Below, in pieces: positions 99 through 10,148 of a stretch of 64,000 nucleotides of DNA (positions are counted from its first letter, which is position 1; every line of letters begins with the position of its first letter). The notes below the pieces were generated by a model, which was not told the DNA's origin, ran no database searches, and worked only from the letters and a program-made list of their open reading frames with translations. Origin of the DNA: Thermobifida halotolerans (GTDB lineage: Bacteria; Actinomycetota; Actinomycetes; Streptosporangiales; Streptosporangiaceae); the NCBI RefSeq assembly GCF_003574835.2, contig NZ_CP063196.1, positions 806,001 through 870,000 of the forward strand, written 5' to 3'. The translations under genes were made by a program, and so were the position numbers.

Positions 99-881
99 AT
101 GGCATTCAAGCGGCTGCTGGCCGGACTGGGCTTCGGCGGAGCCTCGGTGGAGACCGTCATGGAGGACGCCGTGGCCGTGCCCGGCGGAGTGCTGCGCGGC
201 CAGGTGCACATCGAGGGCGGAACAGTCGACCAGCAGGTCGAGGAGCTCACCGTGGGCCTGCAGACCCGGGTGGAGGTGGAGTCGGGCGACAACGAGTACT
301 CGCAGGACATGGAGTTCTGCCGCCAGCGGCTCGGCGGCGCGCTGCACCTGCACCCCGGAGCGCGCTACACCGTCCCCTTCGAACTGCGGGTCCCGTTCGA
401 GACCCCGGTGAACTGGTACCGGGGAACCGTCCTGCACCCGATGCGGCTGGGCGTCAACACGCGGTTGAGCGTGGCCGGCGCGATCGACCCCGGAGACCTC
501 GACCCGGTGCGGGTGGGGCCGCTGCCGTCCCAGCAGGCCGTGCTGGACGCGCTGGTCTCCCTGGGCTTCGTCGTCAAGCACACCGACATGGAGCGGGGAC
601 AGTTGCGCGGCACCCGGCAGCGGCTGCCGTTCTACCAGGAGATCGAGTTCCACGCGCCGAGCCGCTACCGCGGGCTCAACGACCTGGAACTGTCGTTCGC
701 GACCGACGAGCGCGGCGCGGACGTGGTGGTGGAACTGGACCGCAGGCCGGGACTGCTGGGCGAGCGGTCCGACTCCTACTTCGCGTTCTCCTTCGACCAC
801 GCCACCGCGGCCCACCAGGACTGGGCCGGCTACCTGCACGCCCAGATCGACGCGATCGCGGGGCGGCGCGGCTGGCTGTGA
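99..881 (+). CDS. Spo0M (SpoOM) family sporulation-control protein
   Basis: The 260-residue product matches the Spo0M family, arrestin-like beta-sandwich cytoplasmic proteins linked to sporulation control in Bacillus and found as orphans in actinomycetes. Visible family features are the N-terminal stretch ending KRLLAGLGFGGASVET, the phrase PGGVLRGQVHIEGG (about residues 28-41), and a long all-beta body with a central PFELRVPFETPVNWYRG segment. There is no signal peptide or membrane segment. I chose ATG at 99 because GGAGG sits at 89-93; an in-frame GTG at 87 overlaps that ribosome site and is unlikely. The gene is monocistronic, with about 115 bases before the next gene. The role in this organism is inferred from the family only. 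Confidence 0.9.
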   Translation: MAFKRLLAGLGFGGASVETVMEDAVAVPGGVLRGQVHIEGGTVDQQVEELTVGLQTRVEVESGDNEYSQDMEFCRQRLGGALHLHPGARYTVPFELRVPFETPVNWYRGTVLHPMRLGVNTRLSVAGAIDPGDLDPVRVGPLPSQQAVLDALVSLGFVVKHTDMERGQLRGTRQRLPFYQEIEFHAPSRYRGLNDLELSFATDERGADVVVELDRRPGLLGERSDSYFAFSFDHATAAHQDWAGYLHAQIDAIAGRRGWL

Positions 882-995
882 CGTACCGTGAGCTTGCCCG
901 CAGGTAACGATCCGGTGCACAGTAGGGCTCGTTCGGATGACCGGGGAGGGCGGGGGGAGGCTCTCCGGCTTCTGTCGTGAGGAGTGGGAAGAGAT

Positions 996-2852
996 ATGCG
1001 CCAGTCACCGACCCCTGTTCCGCCGCCGCCGCGCCCCGAGGTGCTGGGCGAGTTGGCGTACCTGAGCGTCCAGCGCGACGGCGACGGCACGGTCCTCCAC
1101 CGCCCCGCCGAGGGGGGCTGGCGCGACGTGGACGCGACCGAGTTCCTGACCTCGGTCACCAGGCTGGCCAGGGGGCTGATCGCCGCGGGCGTCGGCCTCG
1201 GGGACCGGGTGCTCGTGGCCGCGCCGGGCGGCTACGAACGGACCCTGGTGGTGTTCGCGGTGTGGGCCGCGGGCGGAGTGGTGGTGGAGGTGCCGCCGAA
1301 CTGCTCCCCGGGACTGCTGCGGCGGGCGCTGCGGGACAGCCGTCCGGCCGTGGCGGTGCTGCGCGACCAGCGGCAGACGCGGGTCGCGGCGTCGCTCCAG
1401 CACGAACTGGTGGACCTGGGACGGGTCTGGACGGTGGACGACGCCGGACTGGAGGCGATCGCCAAGCCCGGGGCCTACATGGACGGCACGGCGGTGCGGT
1501 TCCGGGTGGAGGAGAGCACCGCCCAGGACACGGCGCTGATCCACTACACCGTCACGCCGCAGCGGCGGGTGCGGGGAGCGGTACTGACCCACCGCAACCT
1601 GCTGGCCGCGGCGGGAGCGGCGGTCGACCGGCTGGCCCCGGTGCTCGCGTCCATGCCGGCGGGGGCGGCCACCACGCTGCTGGGACCGCGGACGGGCGGG
1701 CTGGCGAGCTGCTCCGCGGTGGTGGCGGGCGTCCTGGCGGGCGTCCGGGTGGGGTTCGCCCACCCCGAGCAGGTCTTCGCCCACCAGGTCAGGGAGTTCG
1801 CGCCGACCCTGCTGGTGACCGACGCGGCTTTTCTGACCCGTGTCTACGAGGTGGAGCGGTCGCGGGCGCGGCAGGGCGGCTGGGACGGCGCCCAGGGGTT
1901 CGAGGCCGCCACCCGGCTGGCGGTGGACCTGGGACGGAAGAAGCGGCGGCCGTGGCAGCGGATGTCGCGCGCCATCTACGACTGGGCCTTCGCCCGGGTC
2001 AGGGATGCCCTGGGCGGCCAGGTGCGTGCGGCGGTGTGCGTTCCGGGCGGCCTGGAGCCGAGGCTGGCGTACTTCTACGAGGGGCTGGGCATCCCCGTGC
2101 TGGAGGGCTTCGGGCTGGCGCAGACCGGCGGGGTGGCGGCGCTGACCGTTCCGGGGCAGCCCCGGCCGGGCACCGTGGGGCCCGCGGTCGACGGTGTGGA
2201 GCTGAAGACCGCCGACGACGGCGAGGTGCTGGTGCGCGGTCCCGGGGTGTTCGCCGGATACCACAACGCCGTTCAGGAGGACACCCAGGTCCTGCCGGAC
2301 GGGTGGCTGGCCACGGGGCGGCTGGGAGAACTGGACGAGCAGGGGTACCTGACCGTGCGGGAGGCCGTGCCGCAGGTGCGGTCCGGCCGGGAGGCGGAGG
2401 TTCCGGCGGTCGGGGTCGTCACGGACGGGACGGCGCGGAGCGCGACGGCCGACTACGTCGACCTGGAGACGCAGTTGCTGGCGCACCCGCTGATCAGCCA
2501 GGTGATCGTGCTGGGCGAGGGACGCCCGTACGCGACCGCGCTGATCACGTTGAAGCGGGACCAGTTGGAGTACTGGCGGCTGATCAACAACCTGCCGCTG
2601 TCGACACCGCTGGAGCAGATCGCGCTGGCGCCGGAGGTGGGGGCCGAGATCCGCCGCGTGGTGGAGGAGGTCAACAACGGGGTGCCGCCGGAGCTGATGA
2701 TCCGTGCCTTCCACGTGCTGCCCGAGGAGTTCAGCCAGGCCAGCGGGCTGCTGCTGCCGTCGGGGCGGCTGCGCCGGGACGCGGTGCTGCGGGCGTTCGC
2801 CGACGAGATCGAGGCGCTGTACGCGCCCCCGTCGATCGAGGAGGGACGCTGA
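996..2852 (+). CDS. AMP-dependent acyl-CoA ligase-like protein, probably inactive
   Basis: The 618-residue protein has the overall layout of FadD15-type long-chain acyl-CoA ligases (ANL superfamily), including EGFGLAQTGG at the A5 position. The nucleotide-binding signatures are eroded. The A3 loop, normally TSGTTGxPKG, reads TVTPQRRVRGAV (about residues 185-196). The A7 motif, normally TGD, reads TGRLGELDEQGYL (about 439), losing the ribose-binding aspartate. The GRxKE hinge is absent, and the A10 catalytic lysine region reads SGRLRRD. This suggests a pseudoenzyme or an enzyme that no longer adenylates. The start is ATG at 996, with AGGAG at 980-984; GTG at 984 is the alternative. It may be co-transcribed with the SRPBCC gene 110 bases downstream, which could point to lipid binding or handling. 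Confidence 0.85.
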   Translation: MRQSPTPVPPPPRPEVLGELAYLSVQRDGDGTVLHRPAEGGWRDVDATEFLTSVTRLARGLIAAGVGLGDRVLVAAPGGYERTLVVFAVWAAGGVVVEVPPNCSPGLLRRALRDSRPAVAVLRDQRQTRVAASLQHELVDLGRVWTVDDAGLEAIAKPGAYMDGTAVRFRVEESTAQDTALIHYTVTPQRRVRGAVLTHRNLLAAAGAAVDRLAPVLASMPAGAATTLLGPRTGGLASCSAVVAGVLAGVRVGFAHPEQVFAHQVREFAPTLLVTDAAFLTRVYEVERSRARQGGWDGAQGFEAATRLAVDLGRKKRRPWQRMSRAIYDWAFARVRDALGGQVRAAVCVPGGLEPRLAYFYEGLGIPVLEGFGLAQTGGVAALTVPGQPRPGTVGPAVDGVELKTADDGEVLVRGPGVFAGYHNAVQEDTQVLPDGWLATGRLGELDEQGYLTVREAVPQVRSGREAEVPAVGVVTDGTARSATADYVDLETQLLAHPLISQVIVLGEGRPYATALITLKRDQLEYWRLINNLPLSTPLEQIALAPEVGAEIRRVVEEVNNGVPPELMIRAFHVLPEEFSQASGLLLPSGRLRRDAVLRAFADEIEALYAPPSIEEGR

Positions 2853-2962
2853 CGGCGCGACGCCGTGTGTGGACGCGGACCGCTCGGGTAGCGGCGTGGT
2901 CGGACAGGACCGCCGTCCGGCGGATCCGCGTCAACGCAGTCGATCAGAGAGGACGTCGCAGG

Positions 2963-3469
2963 ATGTCTCAGGTCATCGAAGCCGTCGAGGTCGACGTTCC
3001 GGTCCGGGCCGCCTACGACCAGTGGACCCGATTCGAGACGTTTCCGCGGTTCATGGAGGGTGTGGAACGGGTCGAGCAGCAGGACGACACGCGCACCCAC
3101 TGGGAGATCTCCATCGGGGGGCAGCGCCGCGAGTTCGACGCGGTGATCACCGAGCAGGTCCCGGACGAGCGTGTGGCGTGGAAGAGCGTGGACGGCACCA
3201 CCCACGCGGGCGTGGTGACCTTCCACCGCCTGGACCCGCAGCACACCCGGGTGACGCTGCAGATGGAGACCGCTCCCGAGGGGGTCGTGGAGCAGTTGGG
3301 CGACAAGCTCGGCGTGGTCAAGGCGCGGACCAAGGGCGACCTGAAGCGGTTCAAGCAGTTCATCGAGGACCGGGGCGCTCCCCCCGAGGGCGGCTGGCGC
3401 GGCGAGGTCCGTCCGGGGCAGGGCAAGGTCGCCGGGGACCGGCCCGAGTCTCCGGGGGAGACCAGGTAG
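2963..3469 (+). CDS. SRPBCC (polyketide cyclase/COQ10-like START) family protein
   Basis: The 168-residue cytoplasmic protein begins VIEAVEVDVPVRAAYDQWTR, followed by FPRFMEGVERVEQ and later GGQRREFDAVITEQVPDERVAWKS. This is the pattern of SRPBCC proteins of the Coq10/START type, helix-grip folds that bind hydrophobic ligands. The C-terminal 25 residues are charged and proline/glycine-rich, probably disordered. ATG at 2963 is preceded by a GCAGG ribosome site. The reading frame is open for a long way upstream, but that part is an out-of-frame shadow of the ligase-like gene. The ligand is unknown; the neighbouring ligase-like protein makes a fatty acyl or polyketide ligand conceivable, but that is speculation. 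Confidence 0.88.
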   Translation: MSQVIEAVEVDVPVRAAYDQWTRFETFPRFMEGVERVEQQDDTRTHWEISIGGQRREFDAVITEQVPDERVAWKSVDGTTHAGVVTFHRLDPQHTRVTLQMETAPEGVVEQLGDKLGVVKARTKGDLKRFKQFIEDRGAPPEGGWRGEVRPGQGKVAGDRPESPGETR

Positions 3470-3777: not shown

Positions 3778-4743
3778 GTGCTGCCAGAGGTAGAGGCATG
3801 GCTCGACCGGCGCACCAGCCGTGCGCAGGACTGGGACGCCGGCGTCCTTGCCGAGAACAAGCAGGGCCAGCGGATCACCGTGGTTCTTCCGGCCCGTAAC
3901 GAGAGCGCGACCGTCGGGACGATCGTGACCCGCATTCGTACCGCCCTGTGCGAGCAGGTCCCCCTGGTGGACGAAATCGTGGTCATCGACTCGCGCAGTA
4001 CCGACAACACCGCCGAAGTGGCAGCGCGGGCGGGCGCGACTGTGTACCACCAGGACGCGATCCGCCCCGATCTCCCGCCCGGAGAGGGCAAGGGCGAGGC
4101 CCTGTGGAAGTCGCTGTTCGTGGCGACCGGGGACATCCTCGTCTTCGTCGACGCCGACCTGCTGAGCTTCACCCCCGACTACGTGACGGGGCTGCTCGGC
4201 CCGCTGATCACCGACCCGGACGTGGCCTACGTCAAGGCCTGCTACGACCGCCCGCTCAAGGGCACCCCGGGACAGACGTACAACGGCGGACGGGTCACCG
4301 AACTGGTGGCGCGCCCGCTGCTCAACCAGTACTGGCCGCAGTTGGCGGGGTTCGTCCAACCCCTGTCGGGGGAGTACGCGGGCCGCGCCGACGTGCTGCG
4401 CCGCATGCCGTTCGTGTCCCACTACGGCGTGGAACTGGGGCTGCTCGTCGACCTGCTGGAGTCCGAGGGACTGGACGCGCTCGCCCAGGTGGACCTGGGG
4501 GTGCGCGAGCACACCAACCAGACCACCCCGGACCTGGGGGTGATGGCCGCGCAGATCCAGCACACCGCCCGCAGCCGCCTGCTGCGGTCGGGGCGCCTGG
4601 TGGAGACCGCTGGCGCCGCCACCACGCTCGTGCAGTACGTGCGCAGCGAGGCCGTCGACGGCGCGTACGTGCCGTACGCGCGGGAGACCGCCATCACCGA
4701 GCGGCCTCCGGCGGACAGCCTGGCCGAACCCGTGCTGATCTGA
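3778..4743 (+). CDS. gpgS: glucosyl-3-phosphoglycerate synthase (GT-A glycosyltransferase)
   Basis: The 321-residue protein is a GT-A fold, GT81-type enzyme that moves glucose from an NDP-glucose donor to 3-phosphoglycerate. This is the first step to glucosylglycerate and, in mycobacteria, to methylglucose lipopolysaccharides. Visible signatures are ITVVLPARNESATVG (donor-side loop), EIVVIDSRSTDNTAEVA, the phrase GKGEALWKSL, and the metal-binding DAD motif at residues 125-127. The C-terminal half carries GRVTELVARPLLN, QPLSGEYAGR and the catalytic-region YGVELGLLVD. The GTG start at 3778 is preceded by GGGGAGG. A second, diverged copy lies on the opposite strand at 5372-6361. The two-gene arrangement and specific acceptor are discussed in the findings. 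Confidence 0.9.
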   Translation: MLPEVEAWLDRRTSRAQDWDAGVLAENKQGQRITVVLPARNESATVGTIVTRIRTALCEQVPLVDEIVVIDSRSTDNTAEVAARAGATVYHQDAIRPDLPPGEGKGEALWKSLFVATGDILVFVDADLLSFTPDYVTGLLGPLITDPDVAYVKACYDRPLKGTPGQTYNGGRVTELVARPLLNQYWPQLAGFVQPLSGEYAGRADVLRRMPFVSHYGVELGLLVDLLESEGLDALAQVDLGVREHTNQTTPDLGVMAAQIQHTARSRLLRSGRLVETAGAATTLVQYVRSEAVDGAYVPYARETAITERPPADSLAEPVLI

Positions 4744-4921: not shown

Positions 4922-5353
4922 GTGTGGCGTTTACTGATCGGTGAACTGTACCCGGACGCGGAGTTCTTCGAGCCGGCCAAGGAGGCGCTGTTCTGGCGGA
5001 TCGAGGAGACCCTCGGCCTGCCCGTCCCTCTGGAGCTGGTGGAGCTGCTGCGTGAGACCAACGGGGTGTGGAACGAGTACGGCGACGCCGTGGTGTGGTC
5101 GGCCGAACGCATCGTCGAGGACAATCTCGCGATGCGTTCGGAGGCGGACTACCGGGAGCTGTACGCGCCCTTCGACGACCTGTTGTTCTTCGGGGACAGT
5201 GACATGGGGCCCCAGTTCGCCTACGTCCACACCGGATACGGCCCCGGCATCGTCGTGTGGGACCACGAGACCGACGAGCGCCGGCTCGCCGTGGTGTCCC
5301 TGCGCGACTACCTGGTGCGCTGCCTCACCCAGGGCAACGACTGGTTCCGCTGA
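4922..5353 (+). CDS. SMI1/KNR4-family protein
   Basis: The 143-residue acidic protein has the SMI1/KNR4 (SUKH) pattern: an N-terminal helix pair leading to PLELVELLRETNGVW (about residues 37-51), then FDDLLFFGDSDMGPQFAYV and GIVVWDHETDERRLAVVSLRDYL. In bacteria this fold often serves as an immunity protein to contact-dependent or polymorphic toxins, but many copies are orphans. No toxin gene is adjacent. The GTG at 4922 is the only plausible in-frame start and has no strong ribosome site. The gene sits between the two GpgS copies and converges with the second one, 18 bases separating the two stop codons. Confidence 0.8.
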   Translation: MWRLLIGELYPDAEFFEPAKEALFWRIEETLGLPVPLELVELLRETNGVWNEYGDAVVWSAERIVEDNLAMRSEADYRELYAPFDDLLFFGDSDMGPQFAYVHTGYGPGIVVWDHETDERRLAVVSLRDYLVRCLTQGNDWFR

Positions 5354-5371: not shown

Positions 5372-6361
5372 TCAGCGCAGCGGCTGCCGGGGCCGGGGCG
5401 CGGCGCCGCGCCCGCCCAGCACCCGGGACATGGGCGGGCGCTCGCTGACCCGCACCTCCCAGTCCAGCGACTCATAGCCGTCGGCGGTCTGGACGAACTG
5501 GGTGATGCCGCTGGAGGGAGGGTGCTCGGAGGTGACGATGCCGTGCCGGTGCATGCGCGACCACGCGGTGTCGAGGATCTGCCCCGACATGCGGCCCAGC
5601 GCCGCGGTGGACTGGTGGGAGTGCTCGCGGCAGCCCAGGTCGGTCTGGGCCATGCGGTCCACGCCCACCAGGTCGGCCAGGTCCACCAGCAGGGCGAACT
5701 CCACGCCGTAGCCGCACACGAAGGGCACCTCCTCCAGGGCCGTGCGCCGCCCGGCGTACTCCCCGGCCAGCGGCTGCACGAACCCCGACAGGTCGGGCCA
5801 GCACATGTTGAGCAGGGGGCGGGCCAGCAGTTCGGTCACCCGGCCGCCGTCGAACGGGTTGAAGGAGTCCTCCTGGCGCAGCGGTCGGCTGTAGCAGCCC
5901 TTGACGTAGGCCAGGTCCGGGTCGGCCAGCAGCGGACCGACGAGGCCGGTGACGAAGTGCGGACCGAAGTTGCGTATGTCGGAGTCGACGAAGACGACCA
6001 CGTCCCCGCTGGTGACGGCCAGCGACTTCCACAGCGCCTCGCCCTTGCCCCACAGCCCCGGCAGGTCGGGCAGGATGTCGTCCTGGGCGTGGACGGTGGC
6101 CCCCGCCCGCGCCGCCACCTTCGCGGTGTTGTCGGTGGAGCGCGAGTCGATCACGACGACCTCGTCGACGAGCGGCACGCGTTCGACGAGTGACTCCCGG
6201 ATGGCGGTGACGATCGACCCCACCGTCTCCTGCTCGTCCTTGGCGGGCAGGACGACGCTGATCGTGGTGTCCCCCTTGAGCGCCAGTGCGCGGGAGGCCG
6301 GCCAGTCCAGATGCGAGTTCATCCGGTGCGACAGCCACTGGCGGGTGCGGGTTGGCATCAT
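5372..6361 (-). CDS. second glucosyl-3-phosphoglycerate synthase-like glycosyltransferase
   Basis: The 329-residue protein is a paralogue of the gene at 3778-4743 and shares TISVVLPAKDEQETVGSIV, EVVVIDSRSTDNTAKVAARAG, GKGEALWKSL, GRVTELLARPLLN and QPLAGEYAGR. The metal-binding motif is DSD, as in mycobacterial GpgS, rather than the DAD of the first copy. I place the start at ATG 6361, preceded by GAGGAG; an open frame extends 28 codons further upstream without a ribosome site. The C-terminal 20 residues are arginine/proline-rich. It could use the same acceptor or a related phosphorylated one; sequence alone does not separate these. Confidence 0.88.
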   Translation of the reverse strand: MMPTRTRQWLSHRMNSHLDWPASRALALKGDTTISVVLPAKDEQETVGSIVTAIRESLVERVPLVDEVVVIDSRSTDNTAKVAARAGATVHAQDDILPDLPGLWGKGEALWKSLAVTSGDVVVFVDSDIRNFGPHFVTGLVGPLLADPDLAYVKGCYSRPLRQEDSFNPFDGGRVTELLARPLLNMCWPDLSGFVQPLAGEYAGRRTALEEVPFVCGYGVEFALLVDLADLVGVDRMAQTDLGCREHSHQSTAALGRMSGQILDTAWSRMHRHGIVTSEHPPSSGITQFVQTADGYESLDWEVRVSERPPMSRVLGGRGAAPRPRQPLR

Positions 6362-6521
6362 GGGCAACTCCTCACGGTTGCGGCAGGAGTCGGGCCGTCC
6401 GGCGGCTCCGGACGGGGGCACGAGAAGCCCCGGTGACATGCGCACTCTCCCTATCCAGGATTGCCCGGTATGAACATCGGAGTGCTGGTTTATCGTGGTC
6501 TGCTCCGCCGTTGCGCGGCGA

Positions 6522-8360: not shown

Positions 8361-10148
8361 ATGCGGTACCACGTGCTGGCCTGCGACTACGACGAGACGA
8401 TCGCCCACGGGGGCAGGGTGGACGACGCGACCGTGACCGCCCTGGAGCACCTGTCCCGCTCGGGCCGTCGCCTGGTCATGGTGACCGGGCGTCGACTCGA
8501 CGACCTGTTCGGCGTGTTCGACCACGTCGACCTGTTCGACATGGTCGTGGCCGAGAACGGCGGAGTGCTCTACGATCCCGGCCGACGCGACCGCCGGCCG
8601 CTCGCCGAGCGGCCCCCGGCCGAGTTCGTGGAGCGGCTCCGGCGGCACGGCGTCAGTCCGCTCGCGGTGGGGGAGGTGGTCGTCGCCACACGCGAACCGC
8701 ACGACCGCACGGTCCTCGACGCCATCCGCGAACTGGGCCTGGAACTGCAGGTGATCTACAACAAGGGCGCGGTGATGGTACTGCCGCCCGGGGTGAACAA
8801 GGCGTCGGGGCTGGCCGCCGCGCTGCGCCGCCTGGAGTTCTCCCCGCACTCCACGGTCGCGGTCGGCGACGCCGAGAACGACCACGCGATGCTGCACATG
8901 TGCGAGTGCGCGGTCGCCGTCGCAGGAGCCCTGGAGGCGGTCAAGAGGACCAGCGACCTCGTCCTGGAGCGCCCCGACGGCGAGGGGGTGGCCGAACTGG
9001 TCGACCGGCTCCTGGCCACCGACCTGGCCGAGGTACCGGTCAGCCGCCACGACCTGCACTTCGGCACCGCCGGGGCGGCGCCCACGGCCATCGCCCCGCA
9101 CGGCACGGCGGTGGCCGTGGCGGGCCCCTCGGGCAGCGGCAAGTCCACCGCCGCCACCGCGCTGCTGGAACGGCTCGGCGAGAGCGGCTACCAGTACTGC
9201 GTGATCGACCCCGAGGGCGACTACGCCGACTTCGAGGGGGTGACCGCGTTCGGCGACGCCACCCGCGCGCCGTCGATCGACGAGGTGCTGACCGCGCTGC
9301 GCGACCCCGACCACAACGTGGCCGTCAACATGCTCGCCGTCCCGCTGCGCGACCGGCCCGCCTTCTTCGCGGGACTGCTGCCCCGCCTGGTCGGCCTGCG
9401 TGCCGAACTGGGGCACCCCGCGTGGCTGGTGGTGGACGAGGCCCACCACCTGATGCCCGTGGAACTGGCACAACTGCCGCTGCGCGTGCCCGCCGACGTC
9501 GGCGGCCTGATGCTGGTCACCGTCCACCCCGAAACACTCAGCCCGCTGGTGCTGCGCCTGGTCGACACCGTCGTCGCGGTCGGCGACGACCCCGGACAGA
9601 CCCTGGACGCGTTCGCCGCGGCCACGGGACACAGGCCGCCCGCCCTGGAACCGGCGCCCGCCGAACCCGACAGGCAGCAGGAGTCGGTCGTCTCCGACAT
9701 CGCCGTGTGGCGGGTCGCGGAGACCGCGGCGCAGCGGGTCAAGCTCGCCCCCGGCGAGACGCACCGCACCCGGCACCGCCGCAAGTACGCCGCGGGCACC
9801 CTCGCCCCGGACAAGAGCTTCTACTTCACCGGACCGCAGGGGAGGCTACGGCTGCGCGCCCGCAACCTGCACTCGTTCGTGGAACTGGCCGAGGGGGTGG
9901 ACGACGACACCTGGACCCACCACCTGCGCCGCCACGACTACTCGCGGTGGCTGCGCGGCTCGGTGCGCGACGGCGAGCTCGCCGACCTGGTGCGGCGGGT
10001 CGAACAGGACACCGGCCGCGCCCCCTCCGACAGCCGCCGCGAGGTCGCGCGCCTCATCGACGAGCGCTACACCCTGCCCGCCGAACCCACCAGCTACGAC
10101 CCCGACCGGGGCCGGGAGACCGGCCCGTCGGGACGGCGGCGGCCGTGA
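8361..10148 (+). CDS. HAD-family phosphatase fused to a HerA/DUF87-like P-loop ATPase
   Basis: The 595-residue protein joins two enzymes. Residues 1-225 are a Cof-type HAD hydrolase: CDYDETIAHGG supplies the D9/D11 nucleophile pair and VGDAENDHAM the metal-binding motif IV. Residues 240-480 are a P-loop ATPase with Walker A GPSGSGKST (255-263) and Walker B WLVVDEAHH (D359, E360), resembling DUF87/HerA or VirB4 ATPases. Residues 500-595 form a basic, helical tail (FYFTGPQGRLRLRARNL onward). The strong GGAGGAGG site fixes ATG 8361. The substrate of either half is unknown. It is monocistronic, just upstream of peptide deformylase. Similar fusions occur in other actinobacteria to my knowledge, without a settled function. 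Confidence 0.85.
   Translation: MRYHVLACDYDETIAHGGRVDDATVTALEHLSRSGRRLVMVTGRRLDDLFGVFDHVDLFDMVVAENGGVLYDPGRRDRRPLAERPPAEFVERLRRHGVSPLAVGEVVVATREPHDRTVLDAIRELGLELQVIYNKGAVMVLPPGVNKASGLAAALRRLEFSPHSTVAVGDAENDHAMLHMCECAVAVAGALEAVKRTSDLVLERPDGEGVAELVDRLLATDLAEVPVSRHDLHFGTAGAAPTAIAPHGTAVAVAGPSGSGKSTAATALLERLGESGYQYCVIDPEGDYADFEGVTAFGDATRAPSIDEVLTALRDPDHNVAVNMLAVPLRDRPAFFAGLLPRLVGLRAELGHPAWLVVDEAHHLMPVELAQLPLRVPADVGGLMLVTVHPETLSPLVLRLVDTVVAVGDDPGQTLDAFAAATGHRPPALEPAPAEPDRQQESVVSDIAVWRVAETAAQRVKLAPGETHRTRHRRKYAAGTLAPDKSFYFTGPQGRLRLRARNLHSFVELAEGVDDDTWTHHLRRHDYSRWLRGSVRDGELADLVRRVEQDTGRAPSDSRREVARLIDERYTLPAEPTSYDPDRGRETGPSGRRRP

Follow-up and report, generated by a model that had tools for sequence, protein, structure and literature searches.

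The gene at positions 996 to 2852 of the window, the 64,000-nucleotide stretch of DNA that was analysed (C1:806001-870000 of a 5.5 Mb genome), encodes a protein that is predicted to retain the fold of the acyl-CoA ligases and that has lost most of their catalytic motifs, a loss shared by its whole clade. It is probably (at about 70%) a conserved non-adenylating pseudoenzyme that derives from a long-chain acyl-CoA ligase of the AMP-binding_C_3 type and acts by binding. The ANL proteins make up one of the largest enzyme superfamilies, and their activity is routinely annotated from a Pfam hit. The features of this gene and its protein are:

996-2852, forward strand: catalytically eroded ANL (acyl-CoA-ligase-fold) protein of 618 aa (Pfam PF00501 and PF23562, motif census, AlphaFold model)
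1545-1583, forward strand: degenerate A3 (P-loop) segment YTVTPQRRVRGAV (alignment against 25 intact ligases, all with YTSGTTGxPKG or PRG)
2109-2126, forward strand: degenerate A5 segment FGLAQT, with Q here (intact form YGLTET; alignment with intact ligases)
2313-2327, forward strand: degenerate A7 segment TGRLG, Asp lost
2355-2444, forward strand: variable linker in place of the A8 hinge (GRKKE) and the GGKN loop (model confidence, dN/dS, entropy)
2445-2849, forward strand: C-terminal domain with the EYWRL signature, the most conserved part (dN/dS, entropy, own model, fold match)
2751-2786, forward strand: lysine-free A10 region LLPSGRLRR, within the C-terminal domain

The open reading frame is unbroken, from an ATG at 996, which has GGAGTGGGAAGAG as its ribosome-binding site, to a stop codon that ends at 2852, and its GC3 of 0.95 agrees with the earlier note, which had described a well-biased ANL-fold gene. 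Two Pfam matches exceed their cut-offs: PF00501 (AMP-binding) over residues 26-423, with 119.7 bits against 29.9, and PF23562 (AMP-binding_C_3) over residues 488-610, with 35.1 bits against 20.8. Both parts that define the ANL superfamily are present, the N-domain by PF00501 and by its fold, and the C-terminal subdomain. The AMP-binding_C_3 match begins at profile position 15, and at position 2 in the intact relatives, because the A8/GGKN segment is missing. The closest proteins by sequence are the AMP-binding_C_3-type long-chain acyl-CoA ligases of Actinomycetota, of the FadD11/FadD15 sort, which have the same two Pfam domains and are 30-38% identical over the full length. The window protein differs from these ligases in lacking the A3 P-loop, the A7 aspartate, the A8 hinge with GGKN and the A10 lysine, and its best NCBIfam match, FadD11 (NF038343), reaches 125.3 bits against a curated cut-off of 950. 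An intact paralogue is found in the same genome (C1:567551-569287).

Both ANL domains are kept in the full AlphaFold model (pLDDT 78.5, pTM 0.68), in which the linker at residues 461-483 is unstructured and of low confidence. The nearest solved N-domains are those of FadD13 from Mycobacterium tuberculosis (3r44) and MatB (4fut), with Z scores of about 38 over some 380 residues (for 3r44, Z 38.8, 383 aligned, 2.7 A); both are active ligases with a full ATP site, and their sequence identity to the window protein is about 20%. Modelled alone, the C-domain has a pLDDT of 85.8. No relative of it was found in the PDB by sequence profile, although the fold comparison did match one: the nearest solved C-subdomains are those of carboxylic acid reductase adenylation domains (6oz1, 5mss; Z 13-14 over 114-120 residues), the match to 6oz1 having a Z of 13.9 with 114 aligned residues at 2.5 A. 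Unlike the carboxylic acid reductases, the window protein matches only PF00501 and PF23562, ends at the C-subdomain after 618 aa without a carrier or reductase domain, and has no ATP site.

The motif census was made on an alignment of 25 intact ligases with 58 orthologous sequences drawn from Thermobifida, Actinorugispora, Nocardiopsis, Streptomonospora and their relatives. The A3 serine, the A7 aspartate and the GGK lysine are each present in 25/25 intact comparators and in 0/58 orthologues. The A10 lysine is likewise found in 0/58, against 22/25 comparators, the other three having a lysine nearby, and the ten columns on either side of A10 are lysine-free in all 56 clade members counted. No clade member has the A3 P-loop [YF]TSGTTGxPKG, which reads YTVTPQRRVRG in the window protein, and the segment that replaces it follows a pattern of its own within the clade: R stands in place of the lysine in 54/58, and G is present in 56/58. 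The A4 histidine is lost throughout, its position varying freely between Q, E, D and G. Among the 111 columns conserved to at least 95% in the intact ligases, 39 persist in 90% or more of the clade, and 32 in under 10% of it. The earlier note had reported from this one protein the loss of the A3 loop, of the A7 aspartate (TGR instead of TGD), of the hinge motif and of the A10 lysine; all four hold, and the alignment it proposed as a check reveals identical losses in 58/58 orthologous sequences, which makes them a family property and not that of a single protein. Its statement that all nucleotide-binding motifs are eroded goes slightly too far: A3, A7, A8 and A10 are gone, but the A5 motif, FGLAQ in the window protein, keeps its E in 51/58 clade members (and its T in 1/58), and the glycines of A5, A6 and A7 are mostly retained. 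The known ANL mechanism of adenylation and thioester formation is implausible without the P-loop, the A7 aspartate, the hinge and the A10 lysine, and ligase activity is very probably absent.

Composition bias was rejected as the cause of the motif loss because the intact paralogues in Nocardiopsidaceae, three of them in genomes that also carry an eroded copy, keep A3, A5 and A8. The window protein has 5 lysines in its 618 aa and its C-domain is almost lysine-free. A composition-driven "lysine desert", with a possible link to pupylation, was considered and set aside: the clade has a median of 0.77% lysine and the genes that flank it in these loci 0.95%, with 39% of the latter poorer, and lysine poverty is ordinary for the genomes that carry the eroded clade.

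A tblastn search of 60 relatives, which is free of C-domain seeding bias, recovered orthologues in three genomes of the same genus (73-78%) and in eight further genera (44-48%), and no orthologue with intact motifs above 40% identity. A further survey, by profile across 84,980 species, took its seeds from C-domain signatures peculiar to the clade and thus could not exclude intact orthologues by itself; it yielded 52 eroded Nocardiopsidaceae loci, along with two from Streptomyces whose motifs are intact. Of the 52, one record is labelled Glycomyces and one is an actinomycete MAG. The Glycomyces record (L087, Glycomyces fuscus TRM 49117) has a copy nested inside Nocardiopsis, beside N. alborubida, and is probably a mislabelled Nocardiopsis or contaminated. 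When 200 genomes of the family were scanned, the C-domain was matched in 39, which span 15 genera, always once per genome. In a quick tree, supported by SH-aLRT values and not by bootstrap, a branch with an SH-aLRT of 100 separates the eroded sequences, together with two truncated paralogues, from 25 intact ligases. The truncated paralogues that group with the eroded clade (L052:6766-8367 and L057:6497-8053, from two genera) are second eroded ANL copies, 533 and 518 aa long, and in addition lack the entire C-terminal domain. The eroded protein would have arisen in the ancestor of Nocardiopsidaceae, starting from an AMP-binding_C_3-type ligase.

Purifying selection maintains the gene, and the constraint has moved from the hinge to the C-domain. 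Between Thermobifida pairs, dN/dS is 0.08-0.09 by YN00 (where it converged) and 0.28-0.37 by NG86, and between close Nocardiopsis pairs it is 0.19-0.38 by NG86, a measure that is coarse at this GC content and that gives 0.48 for the intact paralogue. By region, dN/dS is 0.16-0.20 in the C-domain and mostly near or above 1 in the linker that replaces the hinge. Column entropy tells the same story: the C-domain is tighter in the clade (0.71) than in the intact ligases (1.34), whereas the linker is far looser (2.01 vs 0.42) and the N-domain is similar in both. Five residues are invariant in the clade and specific to it (Y161, W320, Q523, Y526, G590). The looser A3 (1.12 in the clade vs 0.30 in the intact ligases) and A5 (1.26 vs 0.20) argue against a new active site having been built there.

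The surroundings of the gene comprise the following features:

102-881, forward strand: Spo0M homologue, an occasional neighbour (Pfam PF07070, 246.8 bits)
894-926, forward strand: promoter-like TTGCCC-N18-CACAGT followed by AGG, with a putative -35 at 894-899 and a putative -10 at 918-923 (conserved upstream of orthologues)
2867-2891, forward strand: sigma-B-like promoter-like element GTGT-N15-GGGTAG, upstream of the SRPBCC gene (same position in other loci)
2963-3469, forward strand: SRPBCC/START-like protein (Polyketide_cyc), an occasional neighbour (Pfam PF03364, 75 bits)

The element upstream of the ANL gene resembles a promoter of the sigma-70 type and may act as one, judging from its sequence. 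The pattern TTGC[C/T]-N17/18-GCACAGTAGG lies 5' of 41 of the 51 orthologues and nowhere else in their loci (1.53 Mb, both strands). When four Thermobifida genomes were scanned in full, the element occurred exactly once per genome; a regulon sharing this element was therefore rejected, since none of these genomes holds another copy.

The commoner neighbour is an upstream gene for a Bcr/CflA-type MFS transporter (285-290 bits to TIGR00710), which precedes the ANL gene in the same direction in 51/51 loci of the genome scan and within 500 nt in 40 of them, and the pseudoenzyme could be its partner, for example a cytoplasmic regulator of the export of acyl compounds. Nevertheless, the conserved promoter-like element of the ANL gene sits between the two genes, and Spo0M intervenes in most Thermobifida (the window and two others), in Actinorugispora and in the N. 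chromatogenes group; no MFS gene was seen at the G024 locus, and the linkage could be explained by general synteny within one family, which makes such a partnership rather unlikely. Improbable, too, is a lipid-sensing pair with the SRPBCC/START protein. As the earlier note had observed, a START-like gene does follow the ANL gene, in the same direction and 110 bp downstream, and it is also found downstream in six other loci: T. cellulosilytica, another Thermobifida, Actinorugispora, a further genus (G026) and the distant Marinactinospora and Nocardiopsis ansamitocini. The functional association which that note implied is weakly supported, however: adjacency is limited to a minority of loci, the SRPBCC gene is absent genome-wide from T. 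fusca (G003), which keeps the ANL gene, four further genomes (G009, G011, G013, G021) carry the ANL gene with no SRPBCC nearby, and most Nocardiopsis loci have none beside it. Moreover, a separate promoter-like element apparently serves the SRPBCC gene: it occupies the same place in 6/6 of the inspected loci that carry SRPBCC, with GTTT and GTTA as variant forms. Its position is the one argument for this sigma-B-like element, because across the genome such a pattern is no rarity (8 matches over forward and reverse vs 4 in the reversed control). The SRPBCC operon as a defining unit is weakened by these same observations, and the gene is probably not an obligate part.

The other alternatives concern the protein itself. 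One possibility is that it is a repurposed enzyme, in which the ANL scaffold would carry out another chemistry, such as nucleotide-independent acyl transfer or hydrolysis, or use another co-substrate, with the arginine-containing A3 loop in a new site. The conserved pattern of that loop and the A5 glutamate of most orthologues tell against a pseudoenzyme and could mean a different ligand or chemistry, and the clade-specific invariant residues point to a new function. Yet A3 and A5 are less conserved than in the intact ligases, the A4 position varies freely, unlike a new active site, and the hinge for domain alternation is gone, so that a repurposed enzyme appears unlikely. A decaying pseudogene or an annotation artefact would account for the loss of the nucleotide-binding motifs and for the one orthologue seen with a broken frame (L107:7001-8949, Nocardiopsis eucommiae HDS5), which ends at 8620 while its C-domain continues in another frame, a break that could be a sequencing error. 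Against this stand the intact frames of nearly all other orthologous loci, a dN/dS well below 1, a C-domain more conserved than in active ligases and the conserved promoter-like element; decay is thus highly improbable, and recent decay in particular was rejected, as the losses are common to the whole clade and dN/dS is low.

Two arrangements at these loci are mentioned for completeness. One SRPBCC gene (L048:6371-6991) has its first ~19 residues (VSEVIETVEVNVPVRTAYDQ) twice in tandem at the N-terminus. Further along the window lie two paralogous glucosyl-3-phosphoglycerate synthase genes, at 3778-4743 on the forward strand and 5372-6364 on the reverse strand, which are 56% identical and both above the NF010496 cut-off; they flank a SUKH-1 gene (4922-5353, forward strand), an arrangement kept in 4/4 Thermobifida genomes.

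The conserved pseudoenzyme that the earlier note had proposed is well supported by the same losses in all orthologous sequences, by purifying selection, by the grouping in one clade, by the conserved promoter-like element and by the intact predicted fold; the lipid sensor or scaffold which that note also suggested is a possible role. Rather than decaying, the gene probably encodes a functional non-catalytic protein that binds or regulates; since the frame, the fold, the promoter-like element and the C-domain are all conserved, the product is most likely a binding protein. Both ANL domains would have been kept while the protein ceased to bind or use ATP in the manner of a ligase and lost the swing of the C-domain on the usual hinge. 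The C-terminal domain (EYWRL...SGLVLPSGxLRR), attached by a flexible linker to a remodelled N-domain, would then be the likely interaction surface. Modulation of acyl-CoA or lipid metabolism would be the most likely role; the protein might, for instance, hold an acyl ligand or form a pair with a catalytically active ligase paralogue in its own cell. By analogy, the best single guess, although a tentative one, is that it regulates an active acyl-CoA ligase by pairing with it; pairing with the MFS or SRPBCC protein and the holding of a ligand are the alternatives to it. It is equally conjectural that a Nocardiopsidaceae-wide pseudo-ligase whose selection moved from the ATP site and hinge to the C-domain might serve as a regulatory subunit dedicated to an active long-chain acyl-CoA ligase or to an acyl-lipid exporter.

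To our knowledge, degenerate NRPS adenylation domains apart, no regulatory-subunit mode of pseudoenzyme has been described in the ANL superfamily. A narrow search with partial coverage of the literature found no description of an ANL or acyl-CoA-ligase pseudoenzyme family like this one, and likewise nothing relevant on Nocardiopsis, on inactive NRPS A-domains or on FadD15 with Rv2185c. Pseudoenzymes as such are a known kind of protein, and some of them have migrated catalytic residues and do catalyse (PMC10211241); the words acyl, AMP-binding and adenylat are absent from that article. Pseudokinases and prozyme-type proteins likewise conserve a dead paralogue beside an active homologue in the same genome, although they have other folds and belong to families other than ANL (PMC10211241, PMC5201418).

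The gene at 996-2852 would be annotated as an AMP-dependent synthetase or a long-chain fatty-acid-CoA ligase. Metabolic models of Thermobifida and Nocardiopsis should not count such genes towards the capacity for fatty-acid activation. With a conserved promoter-like element of its own and a stable, single-copy presence across the family, this probable pseudoenzyme would offer a clean genetic system for the function of a dead acyl-CoA ligase.
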